In this document: one piece after another, positions 9,302 to 61,600 of the stretch
How positions within the stretch are numbered: the stretch's first letter is position 1
Layout: the number at the start of each line of letters is the position of its first letter
Assembly: GCA_963920765.1 (NCBI GenBank)
Contig: OY987246.1
Span: 6,636,501-6,700,500 of the forward strand
DNA length: 64,000 nt
Source of the DNA: Ulota crispa
Lineage: Eukaryota > Streptophyta > Bryopsida > Orthotrichales > Orthotrichaceae
Reading direction: 5' to 3'
The notes under the pieces: model-generated
The model's input: only the letters and a program-made list of their open reading frames with translations
Told to the model about the DNA's origin: nothing
Database searches by the model: none
Program-made: the position numbers and the translations under genes

Positions 9302-9925
9302 TTAACCCCTAAATGCCCAAGGCACCACATTTTGGTGCCGACAATATTGTTATTTTTAGTGTTTTTTATTTTAGAGTTATTCTTCTTGAAGTCTAATTTT
9401 AGCATCAAAATCCCAATTTTGAAAATTATTGATTGTGAATTTTCTATTCAAGATTTTGTGCAAGGGTGTCCATTGCAATCTCGACTTTTTTAGTGTTGAG
9501 AGCTCTTGAAAATGAGCCTCAAATACATTAGATCTTGGAGAAAAATTCACCCTAGAAATTCATTTTAAAAAATTGTAAAAGAGATTTTGAAAAGTTGTAA
9601 ATGGATTAGAGTTATGTATATTATGTCCTTTAACCTCATATTTTTTGGTGACCAACATTTTTTATTTGACATGTGAAAAGAGATTGAAAGACCTGAAGTC
9701 ATTTTTGCAATTTTAACACCCTCTTGATCAAACATTATAATCTTTCAATCCATAAGTGGCTTTGTTGTGTTTTCTTTTCCTATGTGATGTCTAACATAGC
9801 TAGTTTGAAGTTGTATGGTTACAATTTAAAAAAATTTGATATAGCTTATTAAAAGGTTGGCTTTTTGTTTGGTTTAGAGCAAATTCCTAAAAGCTCAAAA
9901 AAGACCTTGGGCATTTAGGGGTTAA
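9302..9925. mobile_element. TTAA-flanked MITE, family E, directly downstream of RUG3-like gene
   Basis: The ends are TTAACCCCTAAATGCCCAAG and its reverse complement, each bounded by TTAA; length 624 bp. The interior (CAAGGGTGTCCATTGCAATC, GAGAGCTCTTG, GAGCCTCAAATAC) matches the element at 47327-47978 in the opposite orientation. It begins 64 bp after the RUG3 stop codon, so it probably lies in the 3' UTR or supplies the polyadenylation region. No coding capacity. Confidence 0.85.
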
Positions 9926-9975
9926 AAGTAGTATGATTTGAGTTTTTTTTTATAATTGGAAGGGCCTTAACTAGA

Positions 9976-10233
9976 TACAATAGAACTCCTCTAAACAAAT
10001 ATCCTCTAAATTGATATCCTTTATAATCTAATATATAACACAAATCTCAATGTCACACCATACATTAGTCGTAAACCAAAACAATTAATTCAATAGTAGT
10101 AATGCTTCTTGGTACTATCTTGGCACTAACCTCAAGATCATTTCACTTACACTTTCACAAAATTAACTAATAACTTACCTAAACTAATCTAGTTCTTGGG
10201 GTCCCAACCACATCAATTTAGAGTTCTACTGTA
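9976..10233. mobile_element. Short MITE with TACARTAGAAC-type ends
   Basis: TACAATAGAACTCCTCTAAA at the left and the inverted TTTAGAGTTCTACTGTA at the right enclose about 258 bp. The ends resemble the TACAGTAGAACCTCTATAAA termini of a MITE group common in plants. The remaining sequence between 9926 and 11028 shows no gene. Confidence 0.65.
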
Positions 10234-11028
10234 CATCGTTTTGTTACATTGTAAATACCTTTAAGCGCTTGAAACTATGTAAATCAAGAGACTTGATTGA
10301 TTGTCTATTGAATTACCACTTGGACCATTTTTCAATCCTTAGTCTACAATTCCTGAAAAAAACTTGTATTCCAATTCCAAACATTCTTGCACTACCACAA
10401 AAAGTTAAATTGATTAGATTTATTCGTACCATTCTTGTGTTTCACTTGTTAAAGGTAATAATAAAGAGACAAGTGTGTACTGTATTAGCTTTGGAGATGC
10501 AAAATATATGTATGCATTAAAAACATTTAAGAACTAGTCAAAAATGATTAGACTACTAGATTTCCACTTTTCAAGGTGTATGGCAATCATCAAATATTTC
10601 AAAGATGAAGTTGTTATTGGGAAATGGTTTTTGGGAAAACAAGGAAAAGCTTCTTATTTGAAGTTCACGTAACGTTATTTAGCAATGGGGTTTGGGGTGT
10701 CATATGAGTGCATGTTAAGTGAAGATAATCTAAGCATTAAATAAAGACCCACTTCTTGTATTTGACAAGTTGGTTGTTTTTGTTGATTCTTCTAGTTGTA
10801 TTCAAGATTGAATATTACCTTTCTTTAGTCCTTCAATTTGGTTATATTGAATTGATAAACTTAAGATTATTGCAAAATGTTTTGTATAGTGGATTTTAGT
10901 GAAGGTGTCAATTTGAAATAGTGCCACTATATGATGCTTGTATTATTGTACTAACAAACCAACTTGTATCAAAATTTTGTTGGTTAGAAGTCTCTTTCTC
11001 TAAAGTTATATAATCATTCATTTACAAT

Positions 11029-11284
11029 GCATTAGCAAAATTTTGAGCCCTTTAGAAGGCCCCTAACTCCACTTGAGAGATGTGCATATAGAGAAAAAAG
11101 TTGTCATTTCTGACTGTTAGAATCTGCCATTTCTTACATCTGCAATGTGTCATATGATGTGCCACGGCGATTTTAGATTATTATTATTATTATTATTGTT
11201 ATTTTATTGTTCTGTTCACCTTTGTTATGTAGCACGGTAGAGTGTTTTAGGGGCCCTCTAGAGGGTTCAGAATTTTGCTAATGC
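11029..11284. mobile_element. Terminal-inverted-repeat element of 256 bp
   Basis: Ends GCATTAGCAAAATT...GGCCCCTAA and the reverse complement near 11250-11284 pair over about 40 bp. An (ATT)n tract lies inside at about 11178-11197. 11285-11919 shows no gene or clear repeat. Confidence 0.65.
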
Positions 11285-11919
11285 AAGAATCTTTCAATGT
11301 CCTAACTTATAAGTAGTGTTTGGGAAAATTTTGAGATTCCTTTATAAAAAGCCTACATTTTTCATTTTCATCTAGTAATTTTAGGGCATGCACTAGATCT
11401 TACCTTTATAAAATTATACTACAATTAGATGTTCCTTGAAAATCTAGTTGGCTTTTTTCAAATTGATTCAAATTTCAACCATTTTTTTTATAGTTCATTT
11501 GGCTGACTTTCTATTGTTTTACAAATCTCCCCATTCATTGTTGGTAAGAAACTAAGATACTCTTAATTTCAACCTCATTCAAAGATGCTTCTATCATGAC
11601 ACATTAGGGGCAGTCACACCTTTTCCAAGAATGAAACTTATGTGAAGAATAAGAAGTTGTGGAGTGGAAATAGGAGTCAATAGGAGCATTTCTTCATGAA
11701 AGAAGGCATGACTACCTTTTTGTGGGTGGTGAAGAATGGAGAGTGTAAGGATTTCTTCACCCCGTGCTTCTCCTCTAGAGGTGAAGAAAAAAACTTCTCA
11801 ATCTTCAAAGTATGGAGTTTCCAAAAATTAAGGAGAAACAGCCAAGATCCTATTCTTTGAAAATTGACAATGGGGTGAAGAAGGTGTGACTACCCCTATT
11901 GCATTCACAACATTTGATA

Positions 11920-13225
11920 TTAACCCCCAAGTGCCCAAGCCATTTTCACCAAAAGTAGGGTTTTAAGAGACTTGCAACTTTGATGCATTGTATTTCAATC
12001 AATTGGATGATATACAGTCACCGGAAAAAAATTGTTGCCACCCCCTATTACCATTCAAAAAACTTGACATATTTTAGAATAAAAAAACATTTTATTATTT
12101 TGTACCATTGATATTTAATTCTTATTAGTAACTCAATCAAGTATACCAAAATCCAATCCCAGGAAATCAATACCCAATTTTTGATGAATTCTTTTGTATA
12201 TTAATTATGTTTTTGCATGATAATTAACTGAATAACAATGGTGATGAATATTTGAAGTTAGATTGCATGAATATGCAAGAAACATCCATATGCACATCAT
12301 TTCTTCTAACCAACATCTCCAAAAAAGTTTCAAATTCTCTTGATATACATTTCAATGTTGGGGTGTTCATGTCCTACTTTTGTAAAAAAGACCATTCTTT
12401 ATGGTGATTAGATATGACTAATTGACTCATACATTATGATTACATTTGCATCTTTGAACACAATGATATACTTACTTTGTCAAAAACTAATAAAACAAAC
12501 AAAGATACTTGTTTTACAAAATTTGGCCAAACCGCCAAAATTTATTGTTTGGGGCAAGTACAATAAGTGACCAATGAAAATAGTGGAACATCTACTTAGA
12601 AAACTACTTGCAAATTTAGGGAACAATTGCTTGTGGGAGATGGGAGATTATAACATTTGATCAAACAACATGTGATGGTAAATTTTTAGTTTTTGGCAAA
12701 TAATTGCTAATTATTGATTTTTACAAAATTCTATAAGCCCTTGATTCATCTCAATTTTGTGAGTAGCAAGATTAGATGTGAATGCACACACTTGCAAAAT
12801 ATTGAAGATTGTGCTTCTTTGTATGTTAAGTTTTAGGGCTTCAAGCGCTTGTAAGATGTTGCTTGCCACCTTGCCCCGTATGGTGTTTCACTCAATCAAG
12901 GCTCTTTAGGCACTTATACATTGTTTGGTTTGACCTGCCATTACTCCACTTGCATGAACCACTTGAATGAACTCTTTTTTTTTGTTTGCCAAAAAACACA
13001 TTTTGATAGAGAATTCAAGAATAATTGTAGGGATCGATTAGGAATGGCAGAAATTTGTCAGTTTTTTGCCAAATTGGCTTCAGCTTGCCGAAAAAAAATG
13101 CCTTGACTTGAATACCTTGATAATCGTAGTTTATAGCAAGGTCAAAAAATTAGATCCAGTACCTCAAAATGGCTTCTGAAATTAGGTGAGGACACTTTTA
13201 AGCCTCCCGGACATTCAGGGGTTAA
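11920..13225. mobile_element. Large TTAA-flanked element, 1.3 kb
   Basis: The left end is TTAACCCCCAAGTGCCCAAG; the right end, read inward, is TTAACCCCTGAATGTCCGGG. Inside, around 12250-12370, is sequence similar to one arm of the foldback at 30381-31262 (CATCTCCAAAAAA, CATTTCAATGTTGGGG). No transposase frame is visible; the longest open stretches are about 60 codons. Confidence 0.6.
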
Positions 13226-13690
13226 GGGATAGTATTGGCTTATAATTGAAATCCTATCACTTGATAAGTTCATAAACATATTTGAAACCAACCAGGAGCT
13301 TGGAATGTATGTAAGCAATTGTACGATTTTACAACTATTGAGTTTCAAAATACACAACTACACAAGTGATTAATTTATTTTTCCACGAAACACTCTAATA
13401 CACAAGTTACGTGAACCAAGTAAATATCTTTTTATAAATGAAACATTAATCACTCTCAATCAAAAAGATATATTCTAATGATACGAACTCTCTAAAAACC
13501 AGTTGAAAAGTATAGGGTACTATACACATTTTGAAATTCAAAATCTTGTAATATGGATCATCTCATTAACATTAACACCATTGAAGTATCTTTGTACATT
13601 ACATTTTAAAATACATCTTTACAAATATAGTCAAATCAGGAGATAACTAGAAGTCTTTTTCACTAAGAGGTAACTCACTGATTCTAGATA
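13226..13690. other. 3' flank of the hydroxylase gene, no other feature
   Basis: AT-rich sequence downstream of the minus-strand stop codon. It should hold the 3' UTR and polyadenylation site of the hydroxylase; no clear poly(A) signal or repeat was picked out. Confidence 0.5.
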
Positions 13691-16600
13691 CTAATGTTTT
13701 ATTGGATTTCCAGGAAATGTATCAAAGATTGTGTCCCAGAATGGTGTGGTGACTCCATAGGAATTGCTTTGGTCCCTGAAGTGGTGATTCAAGTGAAACC
13801 GCTGCACCCAAAAAAAACAAGAAAAACAAAAGTCTTAGACTTCATTTTTTTAAAAATCCTTAGACTTGATTAAAAAACGTAACCAAAACATAAGAGTCTT
13901 AGACTTTAGTTTAAAAAAATCCTTAGACTTTATTCGAAAAGAAAAATTAGGATGGCAAAAAGAGTATAATTCTACCTCATGTTTTGTCCGAGGTTTTGTC
14001 ATATACATTCTTAACTTTGGTTATTAACCCCCTTAAAGGGCGTTCGAGTAGTTCAAACTTCCAAAAATGTTAAAATGTACTGTATGGCGCAATTGAGAAG
14101 ATTAGTTCGATACTAACTTATTGAACCAAAGTTGTGAATTATGCACCATTGTTCATATCTATATAGTAAGTAAGATGTATTATTGTACTCACTCATGCCT
14201 TCTGGTAAAAACCAAAACAACTAATTCATGTTTCCTTCTTAAAAAACACAAAATTTAGTAATACTTCTCATGCCATATCTTGAGTGCACATGCTCCACAT
14301 TTCTCAAATCATTGAAATATTCCTGTGAACATGAGTGAATTATGCAATCTTGTGGTATAGATAAAAATGAATGACATTGATTAGAAATTGAAGTAACTAT
14401 ATGAAATTACCATAACTAAGAAGTTGGGGGCGGGAAACATGCTGCATCCATTTCCACATATTTTGAGCTATTACAAAGGAACATAATTTTCTATAAAATA
14501 ATTAAATAAGGTGCACATGGCAATAGGAACTTTTACTAGAACCGGTGTTCAAAATCTAATTTGGATTGAACATATGTTTGTTTTATGAAGAGCTTTTTTT
14601 CTTATGTCAAGCTTAAAAACTAAAAAGATTCTTTGTACCGCCATTTGTTAAGATTGTGGTGTTGTTTTTTTATAGAATTGAAATTGGAAGGATCACCTAA
14701 TGAACCCAGTTAGTTTACATTTTGAAGTAGAACACACTTGTATGCTTCAAAAAGTGTAAAGAAGAGTTTTGAGCATCTATATATTAGAAAAAATTAGCAC
14801 AAGAATTTGAAATATTTAAGTAGACAAAGAAGCCCTATTTTTTGCGTACATAGGACATGTTTACTTTCATTAAATGTTCAAAATATGAACTCCTGGTATC
14901 CTTTCAAAACCATTGGAAGTACTCTAGTTTGAAAACCAAAAAGGAGGGGATAATGCGTAGCAATGTTATTACCTTGAGTTTGCTTGACATTTTGCTGAAG
15001 GGAGTGCCAAAGTGAAGGAAGTAGTGAGTGAGATCATAAATGATGTACATGAGCACTCCCCCACTGAACAAGCTCAACTTTGTGGGCCTCCCCACAATCA
15101 AGCAAAGTGGCTCCGTTATGTACCAGATCTGCAAAATAAACAAAACTTCAATTTAGTCCTGGTATTGTAACCAAAATAAATCGTAATCTCAAACTGCAAA
15201 ACTGGAAAAAAAAAGAAAAAAAAAAGAAAAAAAAAAAGAAAAAGTCTAAGCTTTGTTATTGAGGAGTTAAGACTCGGAAGGGGGAGCCTAGTGAGGGGGT
15301 TTACCATAATAATAATAATGCCAGTAATAGCAGGAGGAAATACCAAACGAGTTCCATCCATTGGATGCTTGTGATGAAAGCCATGCAGAAAGTAATGGGC
15401 CATGTTTGTCCTGTACAAACAAAAATTTAATAATAAATTTAGCAAAACCAGTATGTTTGTGTCCTTGTAAATTTAAAAAAAAAAACTTAAAAACCAGACC
15501 AAAAATCAAAGCAAAAATCAAATAAAATATCAACTAGCATGTTTTTGGATTTATTCAAGTTGATAGGTTCAATTTCTTTAGTGAATGCAAGTAAATTGCT
15601 TACCAATACAAGAGGTATTTTTTTTGTCACAAATTTTAGGTGTGAATTGAACAGTGAGCAAATTTGGATCCATTAAGAATTGGAATAAAAAATGGGAGTA
15701 TGTGAATAGCAATGGTATGGGAACGACATGGGAACAAGAACACTACAATAATATGAAGTTTAATATTATGGTACTTACAGTGTTATTTATCCTCTCATTC
15801 AACTCACTCTAATTCTTATTTAGTTGGCAATTAATGTTTACGTTGACAATCAATTTTCATGTTGGATATCACTTTAGTGCTGCAAGTCAAACTATTGTGG
15901 TACTAGTGTTAGATTTTTGGTAGAAATTTAGTTGACAAATAGTGTTTATGTTGACATTTCGTGTTGATGACTCCTCTAATGTTTATATTGACATTTATTG
16001 TTACAATTTATAATTGGTATTGCCAGGGCTAAATATCATTATTAGTGTAGTAGAAAAGCAATCTTCAAGAGTCAAGTTGTAATGTTAGAGCTTGGTTCCA
16101 CAAGCCCATTTGGACAAAAATAAGTAGGGAAAATTTTACGGATACCCCTGAAGTTTGCAGTATTTGTACAGATACCCCTTGTATTTCAGAAATTGCACAA
16201 ATATCCTTGGACCATAATTTTCAGGTGTTAGTTCTATAATGCATGTCAATTCTTTCTCCCTTGTGCGCACAACTGCTTCTTTTTTGTTTTAAGGTAGAGG
16301 GCTCTAAAATGGAGCAAGCTCTAAAATGGTGCACTTCTAGGAAAGGCTGACATGTTCCTCTCACATATCTACTACTGAGTTAGGTGGGACTAGCTTTATA
16401 GCGAGTCCCACCTAACTCATCAATGAGAGTAGTAGATATGTGAGAGGAACATGTCAGCCTTTCCTAGAAGTGCACCATTTTAGAGCCCTCTACCTTATTG
16501 CACTCCTTGCTTTAACATTGAGCATGAAGGAAGTAGCGCGCATAACAAAACAAACTCCTGAAAATTATGGTAAAAGAATATTTGTGCAATTCTTGAAAAA

Positions 16601-22035: not shown

Positions 22036-22077
22036 AAGTTGGCGTCACAGAATGTGGGCTATGGCGCAACGGTTGTG

Positions 22078-22621: not shown

Positions 22622-23557
22622 TTAACCCTTCAACGATCATAGGTTAATAGAGCATTGTATTTATTTTGCCACATAATTGGCATTTGATACCAATAAAGAA
22701 TTTTAATTTGGGATCTTGAGTAGCGCACTAGAATTGCTTTAACCCGTAGAGGATCATTGTTCGTTTGGGGGACAAATGGGATTGCGGGCATGTACCTATG
22801 ACTAAACTACATTGTGTGATTTTCTGAAACTTTTATTGAAGGTGAGGAATTCAAAAATCTACATGGAAATGTAATTTTTTCTTCATTCTAACTTTTATTG
22901 AAAAAGTTTAAAATGAATTTCTAGAAAAAATTGCTCCCCATGCAGCCAAAAGATTCTATAAAAATTTCATTTTTTTCAAATAAAAATCTGAAATAGGTTC
23001 TTTAGACTTATATAGATGTGGGGAGCTTTGAATCATTCAATTTGATAGATGAGATGAAAGTCATGAGATTTTTTAGTTTGCGGGTAGGTGAGCAAAACCA
23101 CACCTACCTGCAAACTAAAACTTCTCATGACTTTCATCTCATCTATCAAAATTGAATGATTCAAAGCTCCCCACATCTATATAAGTCTAAAGAACCTATT
23201 TCAGATTTTTATTTGAAAAAAATGAAATTTTTATAGAATCTTTTGGCTGCATGGGGAGCAACTTTTTCTAGAAATTCATTTTAAACTTTTTCAATAAAGG
23301 TCAAAATGAAGAAAAAATTAATATAGATTTTTGAATTCCTCACCTTCAATAAAAGTTTCAAAAAATCACGCAATGTAGTTTAGCCATAGGTACATGCCTG
23401 CAATCCCATTTGTCCCCCAAAAGGACCCTTGGTCCTTCTATTCTCCAACTTTTTTGTTGATCCCAAATGTAGTAAAGGTGTAAAACTATATCAAATACAA
23501 GAAAATAACCTTGTATTGTACTGGTCGCACCAGCACGCCCAGACTTTCAAGGGTTAA
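22622..23557 (-). mobile_element. Family C TTAA element interrupted by a family B foldback
   Basis: Outer ends TTAACCCTTCAACGATCA and AAGGGTTAA frame pieces that read, on the minus strand, like the intact family C copy at 27714-27947. The two halves are separated at 22739-23438 by an unrelated palindromic element, so B inserted after C. Confidence 0.75.
22739..23438. mobile_element. Family B long foldback element (nested)
   Basis: It starts TTAACCCGTAGAGGATCA and consists of two roughly 340-bp arms that are reverse complements meeting near 23092 (GTAGGTGAGCAAAACCACAC region). The right terminus is lost after CTTGGTCCTT. Typical internal words are GGGACAAATGGGATT, GGGCATGTACCTATG and ACTTTCATCTCATC. 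Related copies: 33988-34715, 36556-37481, 46033-46633 and 55982-57133. Confidence 0.85.
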
Positions 23558-27713: not shown

Positions 27714-27947
27714 TTAACCCTTAAACAACCAAAAGGCCCTTTGCGATCAGTACAATACGGAGTATTTTTCTTGTATTTGAAATGGATCCACAACTCTACT
27801 ACATTTGAGACCAACAAAGAAGTTGGAGAATAGATCAATGCAGTTCTAGTGAGGTATTTAAGATCCCAAATCAAAATTTCTTACTAGTAGCAAATGACAA
27901 TTATACGTCAGCATATATACTATCCCCTATGGTTGTTTAAGGGTTAA
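27714..27947 (+). mobile_element. Family C TTAA MITE, intact copy
   Basis: TTAACCCTTAAACAACCA at the left and TGGTTGTTTAAGGGTTAA at the right are perfect inverted repeats of 18 bp including TTAA; total 234 bp. This is the reference copy for 8645-8878, 22622-23557 and 44450-44680. Confidence 0.9.
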
Positions 27948-30380: not shown

Positions 30381-31262
30381 CAGTTACCTACAAGCATGTT
30401 TTGTTCACCCTGTTTTACCCCTTCAAAAATCTTCACATTTTATAAAATAAAAGAATTTTAATTCTTACTCAACCTCAATTCAAGCATATTAATGTTTGAG
30501 TTTCAAAAAACCAAAATCCTATTTTTGGTGAATTAGTTTACATAATAATCATGGTTTTACATGATAAATGATTAAAAAAAATTGGTAATGAATTTTTGAG
30601 ATTTGATTGCACTGATGCATAGAAAACATACATACTCACATTTTTCTTTCTAATAAGCATCTCCAAAAAAAATAAAAACTCCTTCTACATAAATTTTAAT
30701 GTAGTTTTAATGTTGGGGCGATTACAACCAAATCTTGTAAATTAGATATTTATGTATTTTTAACTAGTTTTTGGCAAAATAACCATATCGTTATGCTCAA
30801 AGATTCAAATCTAACTAGTCTATGTTATATAAGTCAAAACAAAAAAATTGATTACTATGAAGAAATATCTAATTTACAAGATTTGGTCGTAATCACCCTA
30901 AACCAACATGAAAACAACATTAAAATTTACATAGAAGGAGTTGTAATTTTTCTTGGAGATGCTTGTTAGAAAGAAAGATGTGCGTATGGATGTTTTCTAT
31001 GCATCCATGCAATCAAATCTCAAAAATTCATTACCAATTTTTTTTAATCATTTATTATGTAAAACCATGATTATTATGTAAACTAATTCACCAAAAATAG
31101 GATCTGGTTTTTTGAAACTCAAACATTGGTATGCTTGATTGAGGTTGAGTAAGAATTAAAATGTAATGATACAAGATTTTAAAATGCTTATTTTATTTTA
31201 TAAAATGCCAAGATTTTTGAAGGGGCAAAATATGGTGAACAAAACTAGCTTGTAGGTCACTA
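30381..31262. repeat. Large foldback element of about 0.88 kb
   Basis: Arms of some 370 bp are reverse complements: GACCTACAAG...TTTTGTTCACC...CCCCTTCAAAAATCTT at both ends, then AATTCTTACTCAACCTCAAT, TTTTTGGTGAATTAGTTTAC and CTCCAAAAAAAAT. The loop is about 30723-30885. No coding capacity. One arm resembles part of the 11920-13225 element. Confidence 0.85.
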
Positions 31263-33861: not shown

Positions 33862-35456
33862 TTAACCCCTAAAGCACAGAACACCCTCTTTTTTGGCAAC
33901 ATAGCATTTTTGGGCACCTCACTATCAATGGGGTTTTCATTTTTTTTTCTTTGGAAATTTCACACACAACGTGTTCAAGGAGCAACTTTAACCCCTAAAG
34001 GATCAAGTGTCCCTACGAGGGACAAATGGGATTTTGGGCATGTAATTATGGCTAAATTACTTTGTGTAATTTTTTGAAACTTTTATGGAAGATGGGAAAT
34101 TCAAAGATCTATGCAGGCGTCTAAATTTTTCCTCATTTAGACATTATGGAAGAAGTCAAAAATGAATTTATGAGACTTTTTGTTTGGCAAGCACCCCAAA
34201 AACTTCTTTAAAATTTGCATGTTTTTAAAATAAAAATTTGAGGTTAGTTCTTTAGACTTACGTATATGTGGGAAGCTTTGAATCATTCAGTTCTACTTGA
34301 TGAGATGAAAGTTATGAGAAGTTTTAGTCTGCGGGTAGGTGTGAAAAATCTCAAAACTATGCCTACACGAAAACTAAAACTTCTCATAACTTTTATCTCA
34401 TCAATTAGAATTGAAGGATTCAAAGCTTCCCACATATACATAAGTCTACAAAGAACTAACCTCAAATTTTTATTTTAAAAACATGCAAATTTTAAAGAAG
34501 TTTTTGGGCTGCCCACCAAAAAAAATTCTCACAAATTCATTTTTAACTTCCTCAATAAATGTTGGAATGAGGAAAAAATTAGATGCCTACACAGATCATT
34601 GAATTCCCCATCTTCCATAAAAGTTTCAAAAAATCACACAAAATAATTTAGCCATAGGTACATGCCCAAAATCCCATTTGTCCCCCAAGGGGACACTTGG
34701 TCCTTTAGGGGTTAAGGCCCAAAAAATTTCATAACTTTTGAATTCATGGTTCAAAAGTTATTACATGATATGTAGTTTTCTTCACTCGGTGGGCAGCCAA
34801 AAAAAATCTTTAAAATTTACTTTTTTGAATTTTGTTTTTTGAAATTGGTTCTTTAGATTTATATACACTTGGGAAGCTTTTAATCATTTCATTTTGATCA
34901 ATGAGAAGAAAGTTATGAGGAGTTTTTGTTTGCATGCAATTATGGATTCTCTACTCTAAAATAAACCTTGAAGTCCATTAATTTACTCAATTTTCAATAT
35001 TTAAAAAAAACAAAACAAAACCAAAAAATGTAGATTGTTTATCACATCATTATAACCATTGGGATTGGAATTTTTCATTTCCATAATTAAGTTCTTAACA
35101 ATTTAGTGGTTTGAATCATCAAGTGTGTACCCAACTTGCTTTGAAGAACAAATCAAAAAATTACAACCTTTTTGAAGATTTTTTCATACAAATATGACCT
35201 TGTGAAGTGTAGCTACCTGGATTTTTGCAGAGAGACAAAAAATGGCTTTTTGTCAATTCAAACTCAAATATCTAACAATCTACATGGTGTAAACTCCTGA
35301 ATTTTTTTTCCCATCTTTTGATACTAGTGTAGTACAAGATCTTATGACTACATTTGTCAAAAACAATTTTTTTTTCTAAAATTTGGTACTTGTACTAGAA
35401 ATAGCGGTTTTGGAGCGGTTTTGGTGAAAAAATGAGCTTAGTGCTTTAGGGGTTAA
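33862..35456. mobile_element. TTAA-flanked element containing a nested family B copy
   Basis: Outer ends TTAACCCCTAAAGCACAGA and, inverted, TTAACCCCTAAAGCACTAAG lie 1595 bp apart. The interior holds a complete family B element (33988-34715) bounded by its own TTAA sites. Without the insert the host is about 870 bp. Parts resemble the interior of 56206-57133. Confidence 0.85.
33988..34715. mobile_element. Family B foldback, best-preserved copy
   Basis: TTAACCCCTAAAGGATCAAG at the left and CTTGGTCCTTTAGGGGTTAA at the right; 728 bp built as two long inverted arms that meet near 34355. Because the arms match so well, both strands carry nearly the same 60-70-codon open frame (34266-34478 plus, 34283-34465 minus). 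This is symmetry, not coding. Confidence 0.92.
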
Positions 35457-36555: not shown

Positions 36556-37481
36556 TTAACCCCTAAAGGACCATGGTCTTTATTTTGTCAAAGACACACA
36601 AGATTGTCACCATGGCAAAGAGTAAAAAAGTTTGAAAATTGGTCTTTTTGCATATCTAACCACAGGATCTTGTACTAAATTACTATAAGAATGTGTCATA
36701 CAAAACTCAAGAACTTTGACAGTACAAGTTGGAAGATATCTGCATTTAAAATGTAAAAAACAATTTTTTTTGCATTTTGCATGACTAGATTATTTAACTT
36801 TGAACTTTTTTAACTTAAAATTTTTGCACCACGGACTTTGGAATTCTATTTTTGCATGGTGGGAAGTTGAGTTGGGAATCTTGGGAAAAAAATAAAAACA
36901 AAAAATAGATAATTTTCATTCTTAAAAAAAAACATTAGGTAGAAGAAGGTATGAGATTGAACAAAACTTAAATTGCTAATAACCTTGCAATGGAATTGAA
37001 ATGCAATGATCCCAATGGTGAGATTGTTCTAGAAAGCAAACTTCACCCTCTCCAACCATTTTTTTTGAAAAAATATTAAAATCGCATTCAAAAATGAAGT
37101 TTATAAGTTATATTTTCAAGAAGATGCTTGAATTGCCCAAAATACAAGATTGTCCATAACTGTCTCATGACTAGTCCAAATGGAATGAATCAAAGCTTCA
37201 GATATAGAAAAAGATGTAATCTATGAGAAAAAAATTAAATTTTTTAAAAAAAAATTTATAAGAATTGTTTTTGCTGCCCGGAGTCCCCAAATTTGTGCTT
37301 ATTTGGGCATAACTTTTGCTCCTTGGCATCAATTATAAAAAAAACTAAATGCCCACACAGATCTTTGAATTCCCTGTCTTCAATAAAAGTTTCAAAAAAT
37401 CATGCAAAGTAGTTTGACCATAGGTACATGCCCAAAATTGCATTTGTTTGTTGAACGGACAGTTGGTCCTTTAGGGGTTAA
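36556..37481. mobile_element. Family B-related TTAA element, diverged
   Basis: TTAACCCCTAAAGGACCATG and the inverse GTTGGTCCTTTAGGGGTTAA bound 926 bp. The right 160 bp are clearly family B (GATCTTTGAATTCC, CATAGGTACATGCCC). The left half is different, so the copy may be recombinant. Confidence 0.8.
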
Positions 37482-44449: not shown

Positions 44450-44680
44450 TTAATCCTTCAATGTTTGAGCGTGCCGTTGTGACTAGTATAATATGAGGTA
44501 CTTTTCTTGTATTTGGAATAGATTCACACCTTCACTACATTTGAGATCAACATAGAAGTTGGAAGATAGATCAAGGCAATTCTAGTGAGCTATTCAAGAT
44601 CCCAATTTAAAACTTTTGGTTGGTAGCAATTACTAATTATACGGCAGCGTATATACTATGTCCTATAGTTGTTTAAGCTT
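44450..44680 (+). mobile_element. Family C TTAA MITE, right end lost
   Basis: TTAATCCTTCAATGTTTGAG begins a stretch colinear with 27714-27947 (TTTTCTTGTATTTGGAATAG, CAAGATCCCAATTTAAAACT). It ends at GTTGTTTAAG, without the final GGTTAA. Confidence 0.75.
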
Positions 44681-46032: not shown

Positions 46033-46633
46033 TTAACCCCTAAACAACCAATAGTCCCCTTGGGGGACAAATGGATTTTGGGCATGTGCCTATAGCTAAT
46101 CTACTTTTTGTGATTTTTTAAAACTTTTATTGAAGGCGTAAAATTCAAATATACATTTGGGCATTTAATTTTTTCTTCATTCTGACATTTATTGAAGAAG
46201 TCAAAAATGAATTTCCAAAAATGGGCAAGATTGGGCAATCCAAAAATTTCTTCAAAATTGCATTGAAAAAAAAATAAGAATATGAAATAGGTTCTTTAGA
46301 CTTATATATACATAGGGAGTTTTGAATCATTCAATTTTGATTGATGAGATGAAAGTTATGAGAAGTTTTTGTCTGCATATAGATGTGGTTTTGTTTTTTA
46401 AATGCAATTTTCAAAAAAGTTTTTGGGCTGCCCGATCTCGCTTGTTTTTGGAAATTCATTTTTAACTTCTTCAATAAACGTCAAAATGAAGAAAAAATTA
46501 GATATCCACGTAAATCTTTGAATTCCTCATCATCCATAAAATTTTCAAAAAATCACGCAAAGTAGTCTAGCCATAGGTACATGCCCAAAATCCCATTTGT
46601 CCCCCAAAAGGGGGCTTGGTCCTTTAGGGTTAA
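46033..46633. mobile_element. Family B foldback, compact copy
   Basis: TTAACCCCTAAACAACCAAT and the inverse GGTCCTTTAGGGTTAA bound 601 bp of two inverted arms meeting near 46385. Repeat symmetry explains the duplicated short frames at 46145-46330 and 46383-46565. Confidence 0.88.
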
Positions 46634-47326: not shown

Positions 47327-47978
47327 TTAACCCCTCACCGCCCACGGACGTTCCTAAGTGTCTCAGAATCTGCTCTTGCATGAATAAAATGGCAACATTT
47401 TGATAAGTTGCATCATTTATAAAAAAATTGTAATTGTACAAATTCAAACTAGATATGTTAGAGATCACATAGGAAAAGAAAACACAACAATACTACTTAG
47501 GGATGGAAAAATTATAAGGTTTGATCATGGGGTGTTAAAACTGTGAAAGTGATTTGAAGTCTTTCAATCCTCCTTTCACATCTTAAATTTAAAATTGAGG
47601 ATACCAAAAAAAAATGAATATGTAAAGTACAACATGTGTAACCCTAATCAATTTACGGCTTCTCAAAATCTACTCTACAACTTTTTAAACTAAGTTTCTA
47701 ATGTGATTGTTTCTCCAAGTTTTAGTGTACTTGAGGCTCATTTCCAAGAGCTCTCAACACTAGAAAGTGAAGATTTGCAATGGACACCCTTGCACAAAAT
47801 CTTGAATAGACAGATCATAGTCATTCATTTTCAAAATCAGATTTTTGATTCTAAAACAAGACTCCAATAAGAATAATTTAAAAAATAACCACTAAAACTG
47901 ATCTTCAAGAAAAGTCAAAAGTTTCCAAATTAAAATGCATGATGGACAGTTTTGGTCCCTTGGGCAGTGAGCGGTTAA
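47327..47978 (-). mobile_element. Family E TTAA MITE, inverted copy
   Basis: TTAACCCCTCACCGCCCACG at the left; the right end, read inward, is TTAACCGCTCACTGCCCAAG. 652 bp, reverse-complementary in its interior to 9302-9925. A further similar terminus (AGTGAGGGGTTAA) at 48846-48858 suggests a larger or adjacent relic. Confidence 0.8.
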
Positions 47979-51771: not shown

Positions 51772-53529
51772 CTGCTTCATCCAAAATTCTTATTTATTTT
51801 GCTTACATACAACAAGTAGAAATTATGAGCGTTCACACTATGACCTCCCACGTATTCCCTAGCAAAACCTCCTTGATACAATTCATGTCACGTAACACTA
51901 CATCAAATATTCTCATTAAGATATCTTTCAAATGAGGTTGCTTTGTTTGCACAAAAACTACTTAGGTGTAGAATGAACCACTTTCTCAACATATGAATGA
52001 CGCATGGGGGTTTGCCATAAAAATATTTTGTATGAAAGATTGTTTCATACTCCTATTTTAATCTAAAAATTACCAAAATTGAAACAGTAAAGTAAAATAC
52101 TCAATGTAGTGTGAATGTCAAGCTAATAACGTGGAGAAACCTAATGAGCATATTTGGTGTAGTGAGGGTGTGAATACAAGGAAGTAGAATGGCTAACCAA
52201 ATGCTTATTGAAGGCCAAAGGAAGTGAAATACCACAAAACAATTTGATGAATTTTTAGCTAGAAGTTGGAGTTTTTGTTGTTGTGTTGTACAAAGTAGCA
52301 TTCTAGTTATTTTCTTTAACAACCTACCTCAAATAGATGGTACTTAGTGATTTACTTGGGTGCCTTTAGCCCCATTGGACGGGATGGGTAGCATGTACAT
52401 TTTGATCTTGGTAGGCAAAATAAATCATGGTCTAATAGGATCCCAAAAATAAGACTTTTAATTTTGCAAGTATTTTCCTTCTATCTTTACACAAATTGAT
52501 TCAAAATTTTGCACAAAAAACATGAAGAACCCATTGACCAAGCTGGTCACATGGTTGAAGAATAGATAAAAATTGCTTTCTAAGCAAACTTGAATGTCTT
52601 TCATCCATTCTATGCAACTCTTATAATGAATTTTTGAAATCAATCATTGCCCACTAGTACACATGCACATGCTTTGCGTGAGTTAGAAATGTATGGGTAA
52701 TGCAACATTTAACTTTACAAAGAAATAACATCTCACAAATCAATTGGTCTAAAATCTAATCTTAATGTACTCCATAGAAAATATCTCATAACTTATTCAA
52801 AATCTAACCTTGATGCACTGTCATTTTGGTTCTTTTTCAAAACCAAAAGTAGTAATTGCCTCCATCACAATGCTACTTTTATATACTTTGCTAGGGGGCA
52901 ATTGGTGTTTTGTTGGTTTACTAAAACATGGTGGGAAGACGTTTGGTGTCCTATATTTGAGGCATCCTTTGTTTCAACTTCCACCAAAATTTTTTGTAAG
53001 ATTTTAAAAAGGGACATGGTGGAGGGTGCTTAGTATTCTATATATAAGGCATCTTTTATTACTTCAACTTTCACCACAAAAATCTAAAAAGTTCTAAAAA
53101 AGGGCACGGAATCAATGAGAGTTAAGCTCCCACTTAATAGTATAGATGTTGGCACTCTTTAGAATTAAAAGTGGCAAAGTATTGACAAGACCCAAGTATT
53201 ATATCACCAGCCAACAGTAACATCCACAATTGGGGGACACTAAAACCCTTTCATATATGTGTAATGGCCCTAATTCGTTTCTGGCAGTTCCTTTTTGGGA
53301 AAATCTTACCTCATTTGACAATTACTTTTTAAAGATTGAAAAAGCTGTGTAAAAAAAGGATGGAAGCGTCAAATCTCATTCAAAAAATATCAAGACAGTA
53401 TTAGTTAATTCTACAAATAAGCTTGCACACATGATAAATTCTATTCATTTTCCTTACTTGCATTGGCTTGATCAATGAAAATCAAATTGTTTGGGTTGCG
53501 TAGTAACATTGAGTTAAAAAACAAGTTTA
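51772..53529. other. Gene-free interval
   Basis: About 1.8 kb of AT-rich sequence without a recognised gene or complete element. A paired CACCAAAATTTT/AGGCATCYTTT motif occurs twice at about 52900-53100. Confidence 0.4.
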
Positions 53530-53531
53530 TA

Positions 53532-54113
53532 CTCCCTCTGTCCCATTGTAAAGCTCCAGAAAAAAATTTCATGAGGGATTAACTGTATTTTTAGTCATTA
53601 TGCTAGTGACAGATGCATTCTAGAATCAATATACCACCTACTAAATATCTGCAAAATCTCAAGTTTTAATGTTGCCGTGAAAACACCCAAATTCCATGCA
53701 AAAAGTATCATATTTATGTATTATTTGTGAAGGATGTCCGCTTCTCATTATTTTAGTCTTTGTACTAATGACACATGCATTTTAGAATCAATATACCATC
53801 TACCAAATGTGTGCAAAATCTCCAGCTTTGATGTTGCCGTTTGGACACCCAAATTCCATGCAAAAAGTACCATATTTGTACTAGTTGCTAGCTTCTCATT
53901 AATGATGATTTAAAGATTAGTAGCAACAATAGTACCTCATATGGGCAAGGCCAAGCTTGTTAAGAGAGGAATGCTCTCTAATTGCATAACTTGCCCCCAT
54001 GAGACCATTGGACATGACGAACGCTTTCTCAACAATTGGAATTAGCAAAAAGGAGCTTTTTAGTTGGACAAGAACTATGCCTAATTTGGAGCCTTATATT
54101 GGGACAGAGGGAG
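53532..54113. mobile_element. Stowaway-type (Tc1/mariner) MITE with internal duplication
   Basis: The ends CTCCCTCTGTCCCATTGTAA and the inverse TTGGGACAGAGGGAG are the classical Stowaway terminus, flanked by TA on both sides. Inside, a block of about 120 bp (GAATCAATATACCA, GTTGCCGT, CACCCAAATTCCATGCAAAA) is present twice, near 53610-53730 and 53770-53890. 582 bp, non-coding. Confidence 0.9.
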
Positions 54114-54860
54114 TAGTTTATTACAACATGTCTCCAGTTTAAAAAGTGCCACCCATTGTTAAGAAAAAGGTAACTGAGCTTTAAGGTAGTCGGCTTGTAA
54201 ACTGACCATCTAAGGGAAAGATGATGTTTGTACAAAAATCAAGTCTATTCAGTAGCTTGGAAATATTTTTGATAGATAGTTAAAGAAGAGAAAATTTTAT
54301 GGCCTTTTAAATTGATTTTTTTTGAGTTAATGTGAATAAACTACAATTTATCAAAGCAAAAGGTGCATAGGTATCTATTCTTGATCATAGGTGGTAGCAT
54401 TCATGATGCAAAGGTAGCTTGTAAATGGAGCACATTAGTCCTAAAAGCAACCACTACAAAGTCAAGAATTCTCCAATAAGGTTCTTAAAGAGTGCAAGCA
54501 CCCATTCCATATTCCAATGCTCAAATCATGATTGAGAACATGTTTTCATTTATTTTAGTATGACATATATCTATATTTTATTGAAGGAAAAAAATCAACA
54601 CAATCATGACCAATAAGCACACTTAATGGTAGTTCATGTCACTCTCTTAGGATTCTAAAATTGAGCATGCACAAATACAATTTCTTAACATAAAAAAATA
54701 TGAACCATTTAAGAACCGTTGTGCACTGTTTTTGTGACCCACCATGATCGGTTTAAAATAACCAAATGCTTTTAGAGCCAACTACCTTAGCAACTAACAT
54801 ATCACCTCTCCCAACTTCATATAGTTTTCCAAGTGCCTAGCAATGATGTTGCATATCTAT

Positions 54861-54949
54861 CTATACATATAAATGAATATAATAGATTAGGCTGTCTATC
54901 CGTCTGTATTAGTTGCAGCGACAGACAGCCTAATCTATTATATGTATAG
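54861..54949. repeat. Short hairpin
   Basis: CTATACATATAAATGAATATAA...AGATTAGGCTGTC pairs with GACAGCCTAATCTATTATATGTATAG; about 35 bp arms directly upstream of the 50-bp minisatellite. Confidence 0.75.
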
Positions 54950-54978
54950 ACTTAGTGCATGCCATCCTTTTATCCTAT

Positions 54979-55243
54979 GGGTAAAAAAACTTGTGTGGGT
55001 CAAATCTTGTGCAGGTAAAAACCTGCGTGGGTAAAAAAACTTGTGTGGGTCAAATCTTGTGCAGGTAAAAACCTGCGTGGGTAAAAAAACTTGTGTGGGT
55101 CAAATCTTGTGCAGGTAAAAACCTGCGTGGGTAAAAAAACTTGTGTGGGTCAAATCTTGTGCAGGTAAAAACCTGCGTGGGTAAAAAAACTTGTGTGGGT
55201 CAAATCTTGTGCAGGTAAAAACCTGCGTGGGTAAAAAAACTTG
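54979..55243. repeat. 50-bp tandem repeat (five identical units)
   Basis: A unit running GGGTAAAAAAACTTGTGTGG, GTCAAATCTTGTGCAGG, TAAAAACCTGCGT is repeated exactly every 50 bp five times, then breaks up into AGGTGG/GTGGGTAAAA variants to about 55390. The units are identical, implying recent expansion. There are no distinct spacers. Confidence 0.95.
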
Positions 55244-55981
55244 CAGGTGGAAAAATTTAAGTGGGTAAAATACTTGCATGGGTAAAAAATGACATGCGTA
55301 AAAAATCAAAAATGTCAAATAATTGTGTGGGTAATTTTTTTTTTTTTTGCTTGAAACGATTATTACGTGGATAAAAATTTGTGTAGGTAAAAAAAAATGT
55401 GTAAGAAAACAGTGATCATGGTCCTTTTATTATGTAGGTATAAAAAAAATAGTTTAATGCAATGGAATGTTTGCTAAACAAAAACAAATATTTTACTACA
55501 GGGTAAAGTTTGAAATTGAAGTGCTTAGATAAAAAGTAACAGTTATTTTCTTGCAGGAGAAATGGAATTTCAAATTTGAACGTCTACTTGGTAATTATTT
55601 AGAGTGTAATTCAATTTTGTGAATCAAGTAATTGTGAAAAGAGGATAGATTAGTCAATTATGGTGGAAGTGAGTTCTAGGGTTTAAGAGGTTTAGAGGAG
55701 CAATGGAGACTAAATTGTCTATAGAGAGCACACATAGAGTGCGAATGAAGATCAAGCTGACGAGAATATGTAACACTTTGCCCTTTACCTAATGCAAAGT
55801 GTGTGACACTATTTTTATCAAATTTTCTCAAATTTAATGTTAATTTTTTTGCATATTTATAGTAGGCATCAATTTATAGTACTTGACATAGTTGACACTA
55901 TGAGATTAATTTTGCCATTAAATTTTCCAAAGTGTGTCCATAGGACACACGGGTTACACTATTATTTGTATAATAACTACA

Positions 55982-57133
55982 TTAACCCCTAAAGGATGGT
56001 TGACCCTTTAGGGGGGGGGGCAAATGGGATATTGGGCATGTACTTATAACTAAACAACTTTGTGCGATTTTATGAAACTTTTATGGAAGATGGAGAATTC
56101 AAAGATTTGCATGGGTATCTAATTTTTTATTTGTTTCAACATATATTGAAGAAGTTATACATGAATTTTTGGAAAACAAGGGAGGGGGGCAATCCAAAAA
56201 CTTCTTTAACCCCTAAAGGACCGGCAACTGTCCCCTTGAGGGACAAATGGACCTTGGGCATGTACCTATGACTACATCAATTTTTATAAATTTTTGAAAT
56301 CTTTGAGGTTTGTGGGGAATTCAAAGATGTATGCATCTAATTTTTTCTTCATTCAAAGATTTATCGAAGAAGTTATGCATGAATTTTTGAAAAATAGGGG
56401 AGGGCAAGCAATTTGAAGAGCCCAAAAAACTTCTTTAAAAATTGCATTTAAAAAAATCTGAAATTGATTCTTTGGGTTTTTATATATGTGATAAGCTTTG
56501 AATCATTCAATTATGATTGATGAGTGAGAAGTTTTAGTTTGCAAGTAGGTATGGGACTTCCAAACCTCCATTCCTTTTGCCCCTTGTAAAATTTGGTGCT
56601 TTGCTTTTTTTTTGATTTTTTTTTCCCAAGTTGTAGTAGACTAAGATTCCTTGGTTTTTGCCCTTTGGGTCAAAGTAATTCATGTTTCTCAATTTTACAT
56701 AAATCCTCCAATCTTGCCTAGTGTATACAAAAATTTCATGGCCTTATGGCATTGCAAGATTTTACAAAGTATGATTCACACCTCCAATTCATTTGAAAAT
56801 TCTTCCACACTTACCTAACTTGGTCTTCTACATGGAAAAAATAAACCTCAACTTTGCGTAGAGCAATTTTTTTGATATTGGAGCAATCAAAGGCTTCTAA
56901 AACTTTTGGGTAGTAGGGAAAAAACTTTTTGTTTCACTTCAGATGTCAATATCTCACTCTTCTACATCTAGAATGAGCTGATTTTTTTCCTACTAGTATC
57001 TCCCATAGTCTAGGGCAAGATCCTATAGTTGAATTTTCAAAAAAATCTTTTTGCCTACCTTTGTACTCATTCCCCCTAAAGTGGCAGTTTCAAGGACTTT
57101 CACAGAAAAAGGGCTTGGTCCTTTAGGGGTTAA
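55982..57133. mobile_element. Two family B-type TTAA elements, one inserted in the other
   Basis: An outer copy starts TTAACCCCTAAAGGATGG at 55982 and runs to CCAAAAACTTCT at 56205. A second element, from TTAACCCCTAAAGGACCGG (56206) to GGTCCTTTAGGGGTTAA (57133), begins exactly where other B copies read CTTCTTTAAAA. So the second used that TTAA as its target. Little of the outer element remains beyond 57133. Confidence 0.8.
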
Positions 57134-58399
57134 TACAGATCTTTGAACTAATACTATAAGCGGGATCTAGAGTTGAAAAACAAAGCCAAAGTTGCAACTT
57201 CTATGCCAAGTTGTAGTTTCAATTTAACCTCTACATGCCCGAGGCACCAAATTTTAGTATTTTTCACACCTAAATTTGATGCCATAGATATTTAGGAGCT
57301 AATAATGTTTTACTTGTGGTCCATACTTATGGCCCTTTCACACCTAGTGTTATGGAGCAAACTAGAGAGTCAAAAAGGGGTGCTATGAGCCTTAGCATTC
57401 ACACTTGGAGTACTATGAAGCACTAAAAATGACTTGGAGTCCACAGTGGCATCTTTTAACACTCACAATTGTTGGGTGTTAGCAACAGTGTTATGGTATT
57501 GTAACAACTTACAAAAACATAGATTTTAGGATTGTTGAGGGAGTGTTATGGAGGTGGGGAGGTGTCACACGGTTAAATTAGCTGTTAACATTGCTATTGC
57601 ATTATGTAAAACTCTTGTGTGAACCTAAAACAAAAATCTCTCAAAACATTTAGTTTCAAAAACAAAGCCGTGTGAATACAAATTGGGTTTTTTAAGCCCA
57701 CCAATACTACATTGAATATTGTTTTTAGATTGCCCCACACTAATTTCTCGACATTTCACACTATTTAAATATTTATAGCTGCTACAATATTTTTCATCAA
57801 AAATTGCTATAGCAAACCATTTTTAGAGGGCCTATCAACAACAATGAAGTTGAAAAAAGACAAACTAGTGACTTCCAAGTCATAAACCATGTGAAATCTA
57901 AATATTTAGTGAGTTGCATAGGCTTCCAAGTGACCAAGTGATGAGTCATGAGGTAGCTCACCAAAGTAAGGCAACCTAATTTTCAAAACAACCAAAATGC
58001 AATATTCAGTGTAGTGTGTAGTACTGCATTTTCCATAGTGCGGGGTGCAAAAGGAGCTTTACTATAATATCAAAAATATTGGCCATATATAGTAGGTGCG
58101 ATAGAATAGTGGAAACTGAAGGCTATGATACAGATATCAATTCCCACTTATAAAACACACAATTATGTAAAAAAATAACATGAACTTCTCGCCTCAGAAT
58201 CCCTTGATTAAAAACAGGCAAAAGCTCCGCAATAATTTCTATTTCCGATGCTAATATTAGGAAGCCAGTCAAAAGAATTGAACGAGGAGAACGGGTTTTA
58301 AACTTTTTAAACTTTAGACTTTAGACTTTATACCAAATTTTCCACTCTTTCCAGGGGCCCAAGCAATTGAAAGCTGCTCCATTGCAAGAAAACGCTGCT
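57134..58399. other. Gene-free interval with possible TTTCACAC-ended repeat
   Basis: TTATGGCCCTTTCACACCTA (57329) resembles a MITE terminus; no clear partner was found. TTAACCTCTACATGCCCGAG (57234) is another TTAA-type end without a partner. AAACTTTAGACTTTAGACTT lies at 58302-58327. Confidence 0.4.
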
Positions 58400-58678
58400 G
58401 GTGTACTGAATCCTTGGTCGGTCCGGACTCCGAAACTAGTCCCCGAGAGTGTCCGCCAGGATCGTCTCGCACCTCCTGAACCAGAAACCGACTGAGATTG
58501 ACAGCGCACACCTCTCCCCAGGCAGAAATTCAAACAAAAAAAATCCAGGTCGGAACTCGGACCTTTTTCTTGTCTTGGAAAGGGGGGTGGAGGAGCAGGA
58601 AGGCCATTCCCTCGACACCGAAATTCAAGCACGGAGAGTTGAGCGCTGCACTTTTCCGAAGTGACGTCGTGATTTACG
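58400..58678. promoter_or_regulatory. GC-richer island, candidate promoter/5' UTR of HMA gene
   Basis: CpG-containing, GC-rich sequence stands out from the AT-rich surroundings and includes GTGACGTCGTGA (58661), a bZIP/TGACG-type site. It ends at ATGCCTGAG, followed by GTGCGC. It is the only such island upstream of the HMA exons. A 149-codon minus frame crosses it but has no family features. Confidence 0.4.
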
Positions 58679-61600
58679 ATGCCTGAGGTGCGCCCTTCTA
58701 CCGCATATGTCCCCCTCTGGTAATAAAAATACCTTCCTCTTCTTAGCAAAAATGTTTTGAATGAATTCAAACTTTACTTTACAACAGATTTGTTTTTGCT
58801 AATTCCATTCTTAGCTTTACTCTTTTTATTATATGGTAGGAGCATCCCGCACTAATAGTGTACCTAATGACGTCACTCTCTACACAAGGTGGTCATTGTA
58901 GGACTTAAAATCTAGATAGATCATTGATAGCTTATTGCTGTTAACCAAAATGATAAGCTATTTATGAATAACTTAGATTTAAGTTCTAAAATGACTACCT
59001 TGCGTAGAGAATGACACCATTAAATACACTATTGATATTGGGTTGCTCCTACCTTAACTACACTATGGTCAGCAGTAGCTACGCTTGCCTGAGCTTTCAT
59101 TCTTGAACTTCAAGCTTTGTGAGGGAATGTGTAATTATACCCTGATTTTTGCTTGAATTAGTAGTTAGGGTTCAGATATGTTGCAGCTTTATTTCAAAAA
59201 TGTTACACCACTTGAAAAAAGTATTTTAGACGCATGGACATGGAAACCACAAGGGCAGTTCAAATCCTAAGCCACAATATCTGCAAGTTTGAGAGATAGC
59301 ATGATATTCTTTCATGGTATTTTCTCTTGTAATGGCCAATAGTAGGTAGGACTTATGACGACATGGTTTATTAGGATTGACTCCAAGTAGCCAAATTATC
59401 AGATGTAATCATTGATCATTGTGATGAGATGCATTATTAATTGGCATGATACAATCACCCCCATGTCTCAGTTTGTGTTATTGTTCAGTTACAAACTATT
59501 ATGATCACAACGTGAGCCAGTTTAGTTTGACATTGAGCTGCTACCTCTCTCTTGTTGCTTTGCAGATTGAGAGCAGCTCAATTACATGCTAGGTTGGCTC
59601 AAATTGTGACCGTTACGTAGTCCGTAGCATTGTTCAGGAAGTTTTTTGGATTTCACCAACTAAAATTTGGCAGTTTTCGTATTCAACAGGTTAGATATGT
59701 TTCTAATTTTACAATGTAATATATTATATATGGATGTTTTGTAAAATCTAACTGGTTTTTCTTTCTAACAATTTCAAAATGCAACTGGTTTTATTTTTGA
59801 TTCACCAACTAATTTTGAACTAGCCGCCTGATTTTTCCAACACAATGATCCATAGCAACCAACATCACAAATTTTTGACAACATGATTTGCTAGGATCGG
59901 TTCTAAGTAACTAGACTATCAACCATAACCATTGCCCTATGTGAAGAGATGCATACATGATTGGTATAATGAATTGCCATATGTCTCACTTCCTATCAAT
60001 GGTTTAATACAAATGATAACGACCACAACATGAGTCAACTTGATTTGAAAATTGAGCTCCACACCTACTTCTCTTGTTGCTCCGCAATTTTAGAATAGCT
60101 CAATTACAAATCGTATAGGCTCACATTGTGAGCTTTACCTAGTTTGTAAGAATGGCTATGAGCAAGGCAAGCCTCTGAGTTAAGACTTCAAGTCTCACAA
60201 AGTGCAACTAGACCTACCCATTTTGCGAAATTGGCATATGTATCCAGCTTCTAAATACAGCATTTCATATGATCAAATAGCCAAATAGTTAATATGTAAA
60301 AAAAGCCCTAGATTCTTCTCTACCATAGTCAGAGTCTACACTTGCCTACACTAAACATTGCGTTTAGGTTGACCCACACTAACTTTCTTGACATTTGACA
60401 CTATTAGAATATTTATTAGTGATTACTACAATAAACACATTTTAAAAGTCTTGACAACAACAATAATGTTGTGGGAAACCAAAATTAATGGCGTGTATGA
60501 TGTAAATCATGTGAAATCTTAGAATTTAGTTGCAAGTATCTCCAAGTAACCTAACAATGAGTCATGAGGTAACTTTTTAGGTTAAGGCAACCTAATTGTG
60601 AAGGCAACCTAAACGCAATATTTAGTGTAGAGAGTTTAGAAGTAGAGGGAAGTGACTATAATCCTCCCTCAATCCAGAGCTTGTGTTTGAGTTTTGAAGC
60701 AAATTTCTCTGCTTTTGCTTCTTGTAGCTTCATCAAAGGCATGCGGTCATCTTTTCAAGTGCTGCAATTGAACCATTAACCCTTGAGCGCCCACATGCTA
60801 GAATGTGGCCTCTCCATATTTGACAATTTGTTGTCTTTGACCATTATAATCTTTTGATTCATGCAACAAAAACTTACCAAATTTTTATACATATGCGGAC
60901 CTTAAGCCTCGTGCAATATCAACGGCTAACTCTTCTAGATGTTGTTTTTGAACTTCTGGTGCCAAATTGTTTGCAATGAGGTCTACCACTACACGAATTG
61001 GACTCGGTGCTTAGGGGTTAAGCATTTCTTAGTTCATTACCGCCAGTAACTTGGTTTGGGGTTTAGAGTCGGTTTGTGTCTTAATACAAAGTTGGAGGTG
61101 TAAGTTAGAGTGAGGATATTAAAGTATGTGCATCCTTGTAAGCTAAACAAGCCCTCAATACCACTTGGTGTGGCCGCTCAGCTTGGTGTACCTCACCACA
61201 GATGCACCAACGCCCTATACAAGCCAAAGCTCCCTCAATTATAGTTTGAACACTAGAATGTTCAAGGTTTGATGAATCATTAGCTCTCCCAAATTCAAAA
61301 CAATTGAAACTTGTTGATTGGTTGACACAAGAGACACACAAGAAAAACTCCACACTTGTACTCTTTGATACGCTCTCACTACTTGCGTGTACTTGCTTGA
61401 GGGCAAGGGTGGAGCATTCAAGATTTGAGCGAGCCCGTCATGCTGAATGCACCCTGGATACCTGCTTTTGAGTGCTCCAAGTAGCGTGCAAGGGTGCGGA
61501 TGCTCTTGGGCATTTGGATTCTGCACTAGGGTCTGTATGTTGATGTTGAAAGGCACCGCTGCTTTTTGTATAAGGTTTTGTCACAAGGTAGGTTTCTGCA

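Follow-up and report, generated by a model that had tools for sequence, protein, structure and literature searches.

TTAA-flanked miniature elements and piggyBac transposases in a probable moss genome

Many short elements that begin with TTAACCC and end with GGGTTAA lie in the 64,000-nucleotide stretch of plant DNA analyzed here (hereafter the window; C5:6636501-6700500 of a genome of 274,817,297 bases), and they raise the question of which transposase moved them. An earlier note on this stretch listed eleven starts of such elements and proposed a piggyBac-type or another TTAA-specific transposase. The piggyBac family is known above all from moths and other animals, and detailed descriptions from plants are few. 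The elements are almost certainly non-autonomous members of the piggyBac superfamily, miniature inverted-repeat transposable elements (MITEs), residing in a moss genome. TTAACCC is present at all 11 starts, and the two strands of the window together have 30 occurrences, against a mean of 11.09 in 100 dinucleotide shuffles (maximum 18; 0/100 reach 30). The elements at the 11 starts are designated A to K in position order (Table 1).

piggyBac transposases and their terminal repeats

The genome contains at least 120 matches to PF13843 (DDE_Tnp_1_7), a lower bound obtained from 116 scored among 528 candidates. Many are near full length, and the best one (E 1.3e-73) covers positions 2-349 of 349. 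There were no PF13843 matches in 14 control genomes. Some of the genes are inside elements with TTAACCC-type ends, which supports the proposal that a piggyBac-type transposase has been active here. Twenty 10-kb stretches around listed matches were fetched (L009-L028), and L029, L030, L032, and L035 are further genomic stretches. L024 has a 476-aa open frame in which Pfam recognizes PF13843. Among PDB chains at E ≤0.001, it matched only piggyBac 6x67/6x68 (E 4e-20) and piggyBat 9c0f (E 6e-17). In a simple motif scan of the 20 loci, all three catalytic Asp motifs were seen in L012, L014, L019, L025, and L028, while the rest were partial. The Cys-rich motif was seen in L010, L012, and L022, and only L012 has it together with the Asp triad. 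Viral contigs scanned with one transposase frame gave two pattern matches, neither of them related.

L009 and L018 are 90% identical over 5.03 kb. Their similarity is bounded by TTAACCC-type ends, with one shared base beyond, and the flanks differ; the left TTAA of L018 reads TTCA. The distance from the left end to the transposase domain is 2525 bp in L009, L018, and L014. The transposases form five clusters by nucleotide similarity, and the terminal repeats are concordant within each cluster, with gaps in some members. The ends are CCCCTAAATGCC in L012, L022, and L025 (cluster 1) and CCC[CT]TCAT[CT]GCC in L009 and L018. They are CCCCT[AG]AGC[GA]CCC-like in L010 and L023 (cluster 3, which also includes L020, with ends not seen). 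In L013, L024, and L026, the right ends are CCCTTTA..GACC and the left ends are less clear. In L014 and L021, the ends are near CCCT.GAC..CCCAAG, with mismatches at both right ends. End pairs are also present in L017 (right TTAA reads TAAA), L027, and L028. Thus, the bounding by TTAA and CCC-type terminal inverted repeats is seen from the homology boundary in L009/L018 and from the concordance of terminal repeats in the others. The earlier note had suggested a search for DDE_Tnp_1_7 genes flanked by the same ends as the window elements. The genes were found inside TTAACCC-type ends, but the literal TTAACCCCTAAAG was not found at both ends of any of them; the nearest both-ended type is TTAACCCCTAAATG.

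It is likely that several piggyBac lineages supplied the transposases, whose genes lie in elements of about 5-6.6 kb outside the window, and that these enzymes recognized short terminal repeats mostly starting with CCC[CT]T. The enzymes would excise the elements and reinsert them at TTAA, so that TTAA ends up on both sides of each copy, and the excision would be exact. Copies differ by ~9-15% in K, in E, and between L009 and L018, suggesting that most of the activity seen is old.

Two observations on the transposase copies, most of which are decayed, are added here. Among the internal stops of the matches listed, TAG and TGA are commoner than TAA, as expected from C-to-T decay of methylated cytosine. 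There are also pairs of piggyBac matches with equal or near-equal scores and the same stop counts on opposite strands, ~15-110 kb apart, which may be inverted duplications or assembly effects. The pairs are L025 (C2:36765124 + and C2:36779670 -), C7:18203169 - and C7:18223004 +, and C10:676128 + and C10:785346 -.

Empty sites, rival superfamilies, and the TTAA target

Empty sites with a single TTAA, which the earlier note had named as a check, are seen for two insertions. The site of F in E is unsplit in 40/40 best-scoring places of the E family, with the junction spanned at 85-88%; these are the best 40 of 1791 candidate places, and interrupted copies are not expected among them. Four of these sites were read, and two of them are TTAA. 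The second case is the J-family copy in L017, whose empty site at L009:8479-8617 is 72% identical over 139 bp and has a single TTAA. One other match of joined flanks (66%, with a gap at the junction and CTAA) was excluded as an empty site. D-type copies were also rejected as the empty site for the insertion in C; the comparison is unclean, as the right end of the insert is decayed and D reads TTGA.

Several results speak against the assignment to piggyBac or against the reading of the target. None of the 120 listed PF13843 matches is inside the window, at least one internal stop is present in 110 of them, and the third catalytic residue of L024 is Asn. No transposase copy was found to carry the commonest end type, CCCCTAAAGGACCAAG (that of F, G, H, and J), at both termini. 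In L011, one end is of this type (19/20), the candidate left end is poor, and the transposase is most similar to cluster 1. Among the 20 loci, L011, L015, L016, L019, and L020 are without a convincing end pair, and L023 and L025 show one end. End pairing of at least 12/16 is observed in 9/20 loci and in 69/380 cross-locus pairs, only a modest excess, and the same pairing with AATT, ATAT, TATA, TTTA, and TAAA anchors is observed in 5, 2, 2, 6, and 5 of 20. Because this general statistic is weak, the homology boundaries and the concordance within clusters were relied on. As for the empty sites, 160 joined-flank queries gave only two junction-spanning matches, and the other two of the four E sites read TTGA (L032) or have a one-base gap (L030). 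Finally, a single empty TTAA cannot distinguish the duplication of TTAA from that of TA, and the distinction rests on base counts.

Sola3 is a TTAA-specific superfamily, and such a superfamily might move some of the MITE families beside piggyBac. This is improbable, piggyBac being the only superfamily searched for, even though transposase copies with both ends were found neither for the CCCCTAAAGGACCAAG type nor for D and C. The right end of F, like that of J, is only 2/20 bases off the piggyBac ends of cluster 1, and the 19/20 match of L011 accompanies a piggyBac transposase nearest to that cluster. It is even harder to believe that the MITEs have nothing to do with the piggyBac copies and that chance placed TTAACCC ends around the transposase genes. 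With ends this abundant, pairing across loci or at other 4-mer anchors comes close to TTAA pairing within loci. However, the similarity between L009 and L018 stops at TTAA ends, and the ends are concordant within the five transposase clusters, at similar distances. In the 20 loci, TTAACCC faces outward in 45 cases and inward in 21 (p 0.004).

The base counts cover the end type of F and J. The exact TAACCCCTAAAGGACCAAG occurs 3178 times in the genome, while the reversed control string does not occur. The base preceding it, the outer T, is non-T in 140/3178, and 127/3165 have lost the inner T; the two rates are not different (p 0.46). Where TTAA is intact (3038 copies), the next base outward is non-T in 1927 (T = 37%). 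In a 264-kb sample, the base before TAACCCCTAAA is T in 33/34, and one base further out, T is found in 15/34. Since the outer T is kept like the inner T and the next base is near random, all four bases of TTAA belong to the target. The target duplication is TTAA, not TA or TWA, as the earlier note had claimed.

These counts bear on two other kinds of transposons. One comprises elements of the Tc1/mariner (Stowaway-like) kind that duplicate TA, strongly prefer T-TA-A, and would have the ends ACCCC...GGGGT. The single TTAA at empty sites would fit a TA duplication, too. However, the bases next to TA are not free as in Tc1/mariner, and the transposases encoded by elements with such ends are piggyBac, mariner transposases not having been searched for; such elements are very unlikely. 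PIF/Harbinger (Tourist-like) elements, with a 3-bp duplication of TTA or TAA, are the least probable: both trinucleotides are contained in TTAA, but a 3-bp duplication would leave asymmetric ends with one free outer base, whereas both ends read TTAA symmetrically with a constant outer base, and elements with such ends carry a PF13843 transposase. TA and 3-bp targets are thus ruled out by the base counts around F/J-type ends. Neither a TA nor a 3-bp signal was found, and the transposase-bearing copies examined are piggyBac, the only superfamily searched for; the outcomes that the earlier note had named as contrary to piggyBac are absent.

Window elements and their relation to the transposase lineages

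The earlier note gave starts only, and each TTAACCC start was joined here to a downstream GGGTTAA. Most of the starts belong to real elements, and their terminal inverted repeats begin with CC(C). The right end of the element at 47327 (I) reads GCGGTTAA instead of GGGTTAA, and the end pairings of B and G are unproven. The starts do not all represent separate, simple elements, as C and E are composites.

Table 1. Elements with TTAACCC-type ends in the window and their positions.
Element	Length (bp)	Position	Description
MITE A	624	9302..9925	both ends TTAACCCCTAAATGCCCAAG, identical to the ends of transposase cluster 1 (L022 left, L025 right)
Candidate element B	1306	11920..13225	ends TTAACCCCCAAGTGCCCAAG / TTAACCCCTGAATGTCCGGG; ends tentatively paired, by terminal similarity only
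Composite C		22622..23557	D-family element split by an F-family element
F-family element inside C		22739..23437	left TTAACCC intact; right terminus decayed or deleted
MITE D	234	27714..27947	middle corresponds to the insertion site in C without the insert, and has TTGATC at that point
Element E		33862..35456	high-copy family; split by F
MITE F	728	33988..34715	sits in E; TTAA on both sides; other E copies are the empty site with a single TTAA
Candidate element G	926	36556..37481	right 143 bp F-like; whole pairing by terminal similarity only
MITE H	601	46033..46633	F family
MITE I	652	47327..47978	A-like interior; ends TTAACCCCTCACCGCCCA... / ...GGGCAGTGAGCGGTTAA
Partial F-family element		55982..56205	one TTAACCCCTAAAGG end; absent from the earlier note
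MITE J	928	56206..57133	86% to L017:514-1452, end to end
MITE K	246	60776..61021	high-copy; ends nearest transposase cluster 3, 18/20 to L023 right and L010 right

Full-length second copies with unrelated flanks were found for A (L009:8902-9554), F (L009:430-1155), and J (L017:514-1452). The outer parts of E, when joined, match 40/40 scored places, and the E copy at L029:1501-2439 has both ends. For K, 42 matches were listed, one of which is K itself, and 34 of the other 41 span 1-246 at 87-91%. I is 79% identical to L032:749-1402 from end to end. Its right end is at 47978, and 48858 was dropped as the right partner of 47327.

The interiors had been described as several unrelated families. There is more than one family, but the description is overstated, as comparison within the window with blastn revealed kin groups. 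One group consists of F, H, the inner element of C, and portions of J (left part) and G (right end); A and I form a second, and D and the outer part of C a third. Relatives of D with decayed ends are present at 8645-8878 and 44450-44677. Some interior families are strongly palindromic.

The ends of the MITEs were compared with those of the transposase-bearing elements. Both 20-bp ends of A match cluster 1 at 20/20, and the assignment of A to this lineage is well supported by sequence. The ends of K match cluster 3 at 18/20, which is suggestive. The left end of I matches the left ends of L014 and L009 at 17/20 and cluster 1 at 16/20, a weak indication of its lineage. The right end of L011 is the nearest or tied nearest match (16-19/20) for the two ends of F, G, and J alike; in H, this applies to the left end, and the right end is nearest to the right end of L010. 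D, C, B, and E have no decisive end match to a transposase-bearing element among the 20 loci.

The collection of all genomic copies, another check that the earlier note had named, took the form of counts. The genome has 3038 exact ends of the F/J type with TTAA and 2742 of the A type. Among the first 100 of the 2742 places, 19 neighboring pairs of A-type ends within 1.5 kb face inward, 17 of them at 637-664 bp; one pair points the same way, and no pair faces outward.

A and I share a common interior. The ends of A are exactly those of cluster 1, and the left end of I is slightly nearer to clusters 2 and 5 (17 vs. 16/20), which is the basis for the idea that a family can change its lineage. It is possible, though rather doubtful, that piggyBac is a major native cut-and-paste system of this genome. 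At least five transposase lineages would coexist, each with its own terminal code, and would serve thousands of MITEs, and families would switch lineage through changes in a dozen terminal bases, their interior staying the same.

Other features of the elements are as follows. A and I (together with L032:749-1402) have similar interiors and different terminal codes (CTCCGCCC/CACCGCCC vs. AAATGCCC), and represent two subfamilies. H has an F-type interior, yet its left end at 46033-46062 is D-like (TTAACCCCTAAACAACCA; 87% over 30 bases). L035 (C6:6516150-6516950) contains a K copy split by a 0.37-kb insert, and the insert itself holds another K copy at TTAA. At 30382-31261, there is a long palindromic element without TTAACCC ends, whose arms are 88-92% complementary and whose middle is ~70% similar to positions 132-607 of B.

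Known systems and the host genome

The ends of piggyBac from Trichoplusia ni start with CCC, like the moss ends. This element (IFP2; PDB 6x67/6x68) also shares with the moss elements the DDE_Tnp_1_7 transposase, the duplicated TTAA target, and the Cys-rich tail, whose motif is present in L010, L012, and L022. The moss elements differ in having several lineages with distinct ends, a moss host, and stops in most of the copies seen. Their transposase domain is preceded by ~2 kb or more, and where both ends are present the length is 5.0-6.6 kb (7.5 kb in one candidate), not ~2.5 kb; the T. ni element is given as 2472 bp in an excerpt of PMC10813416. piggyBat belongs to the same transposase family by sequence, at the E-value given above, and has a different host; here the likeness is known from the transposase only.

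Animals have piggyBac MITEs, such as human MER75 and MER85, which are short, have TTAA and CCC-type ends, and are moved in trans by piggyBac transposase. The moss MITEs are likewise short, with TTAA and CCC-type ends, but differ in their moss host, their several interior families, and the strong palindromes of some of them. The plant MITEs Stowaway (TA) and Tourist (TTA/TAA) are also short, high-copy, and with inverted repeats. Unlike them, the moss MITEs target TTAA, in which the outer and the inner T are equally constant, and they belong with another transposase family.

No description of moss piggyBac elements was found in a literature search, among the titles and abstract openings listed. 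One paper on Niphotrichum (PMC10619864) was set aside, as the matching text contains merely the word "piggybacking". Excerpts of PMC8086355, PMC10813416, and PMC10004981 state that piggyBac-like elements occur in plants, and the repeat table seen from the paper on the fern Ceratopteris lists 1230 PiggyBac copies (PMC6890710). Because of these prior statements, no claim of a first is made. Elements of this kind are already known, and it is the host and the scale that stand out as unusual. Moss piggyBac transposases together with thousands of TTAA MITEs suggest that plants had their own such system. The route into mosses (descent vs. horizontal transfer), the present activity of the moss copies, and the coevolution of transposase lineages and terminal repeats within one genome become testable.

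The plant origin assumed in the earlier note is confirmed by a LEAFY gene and TTTAGGG telomere repeats in the genome. A CCCTAAA array lies no more than 2.7 kb from the end of C1 (among the first 100 of 1673 places). There is one LEAFY gene, with two exon matches. Its 107-residue exon is identical at 104/106 to PDB 4bhk "FLORICAULA/LEAFY HOMOLOG 1", and scores 244.7 bits to 4bhk versus 169.1 to 2vy1 "PROTEIN LEAFY"; these are presumably the proteins of Physcomitrella and Arabidopsis, respectively. The exon has Asp at the site that is His in flowering plants, and Asp at this position is reportedly the moss type according to Sayou et al. in 2014. The host is thus most likely a moss, judging from this gene. 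Genes in the window include those with RCC1, cytochrome b5, and HMA domains (Pfam). At 2854-3198, the RCC1 frame enters LNPKTLNPKT, which corresponds to translated telomere-like CCCTAAA repeats and is probably intronic.

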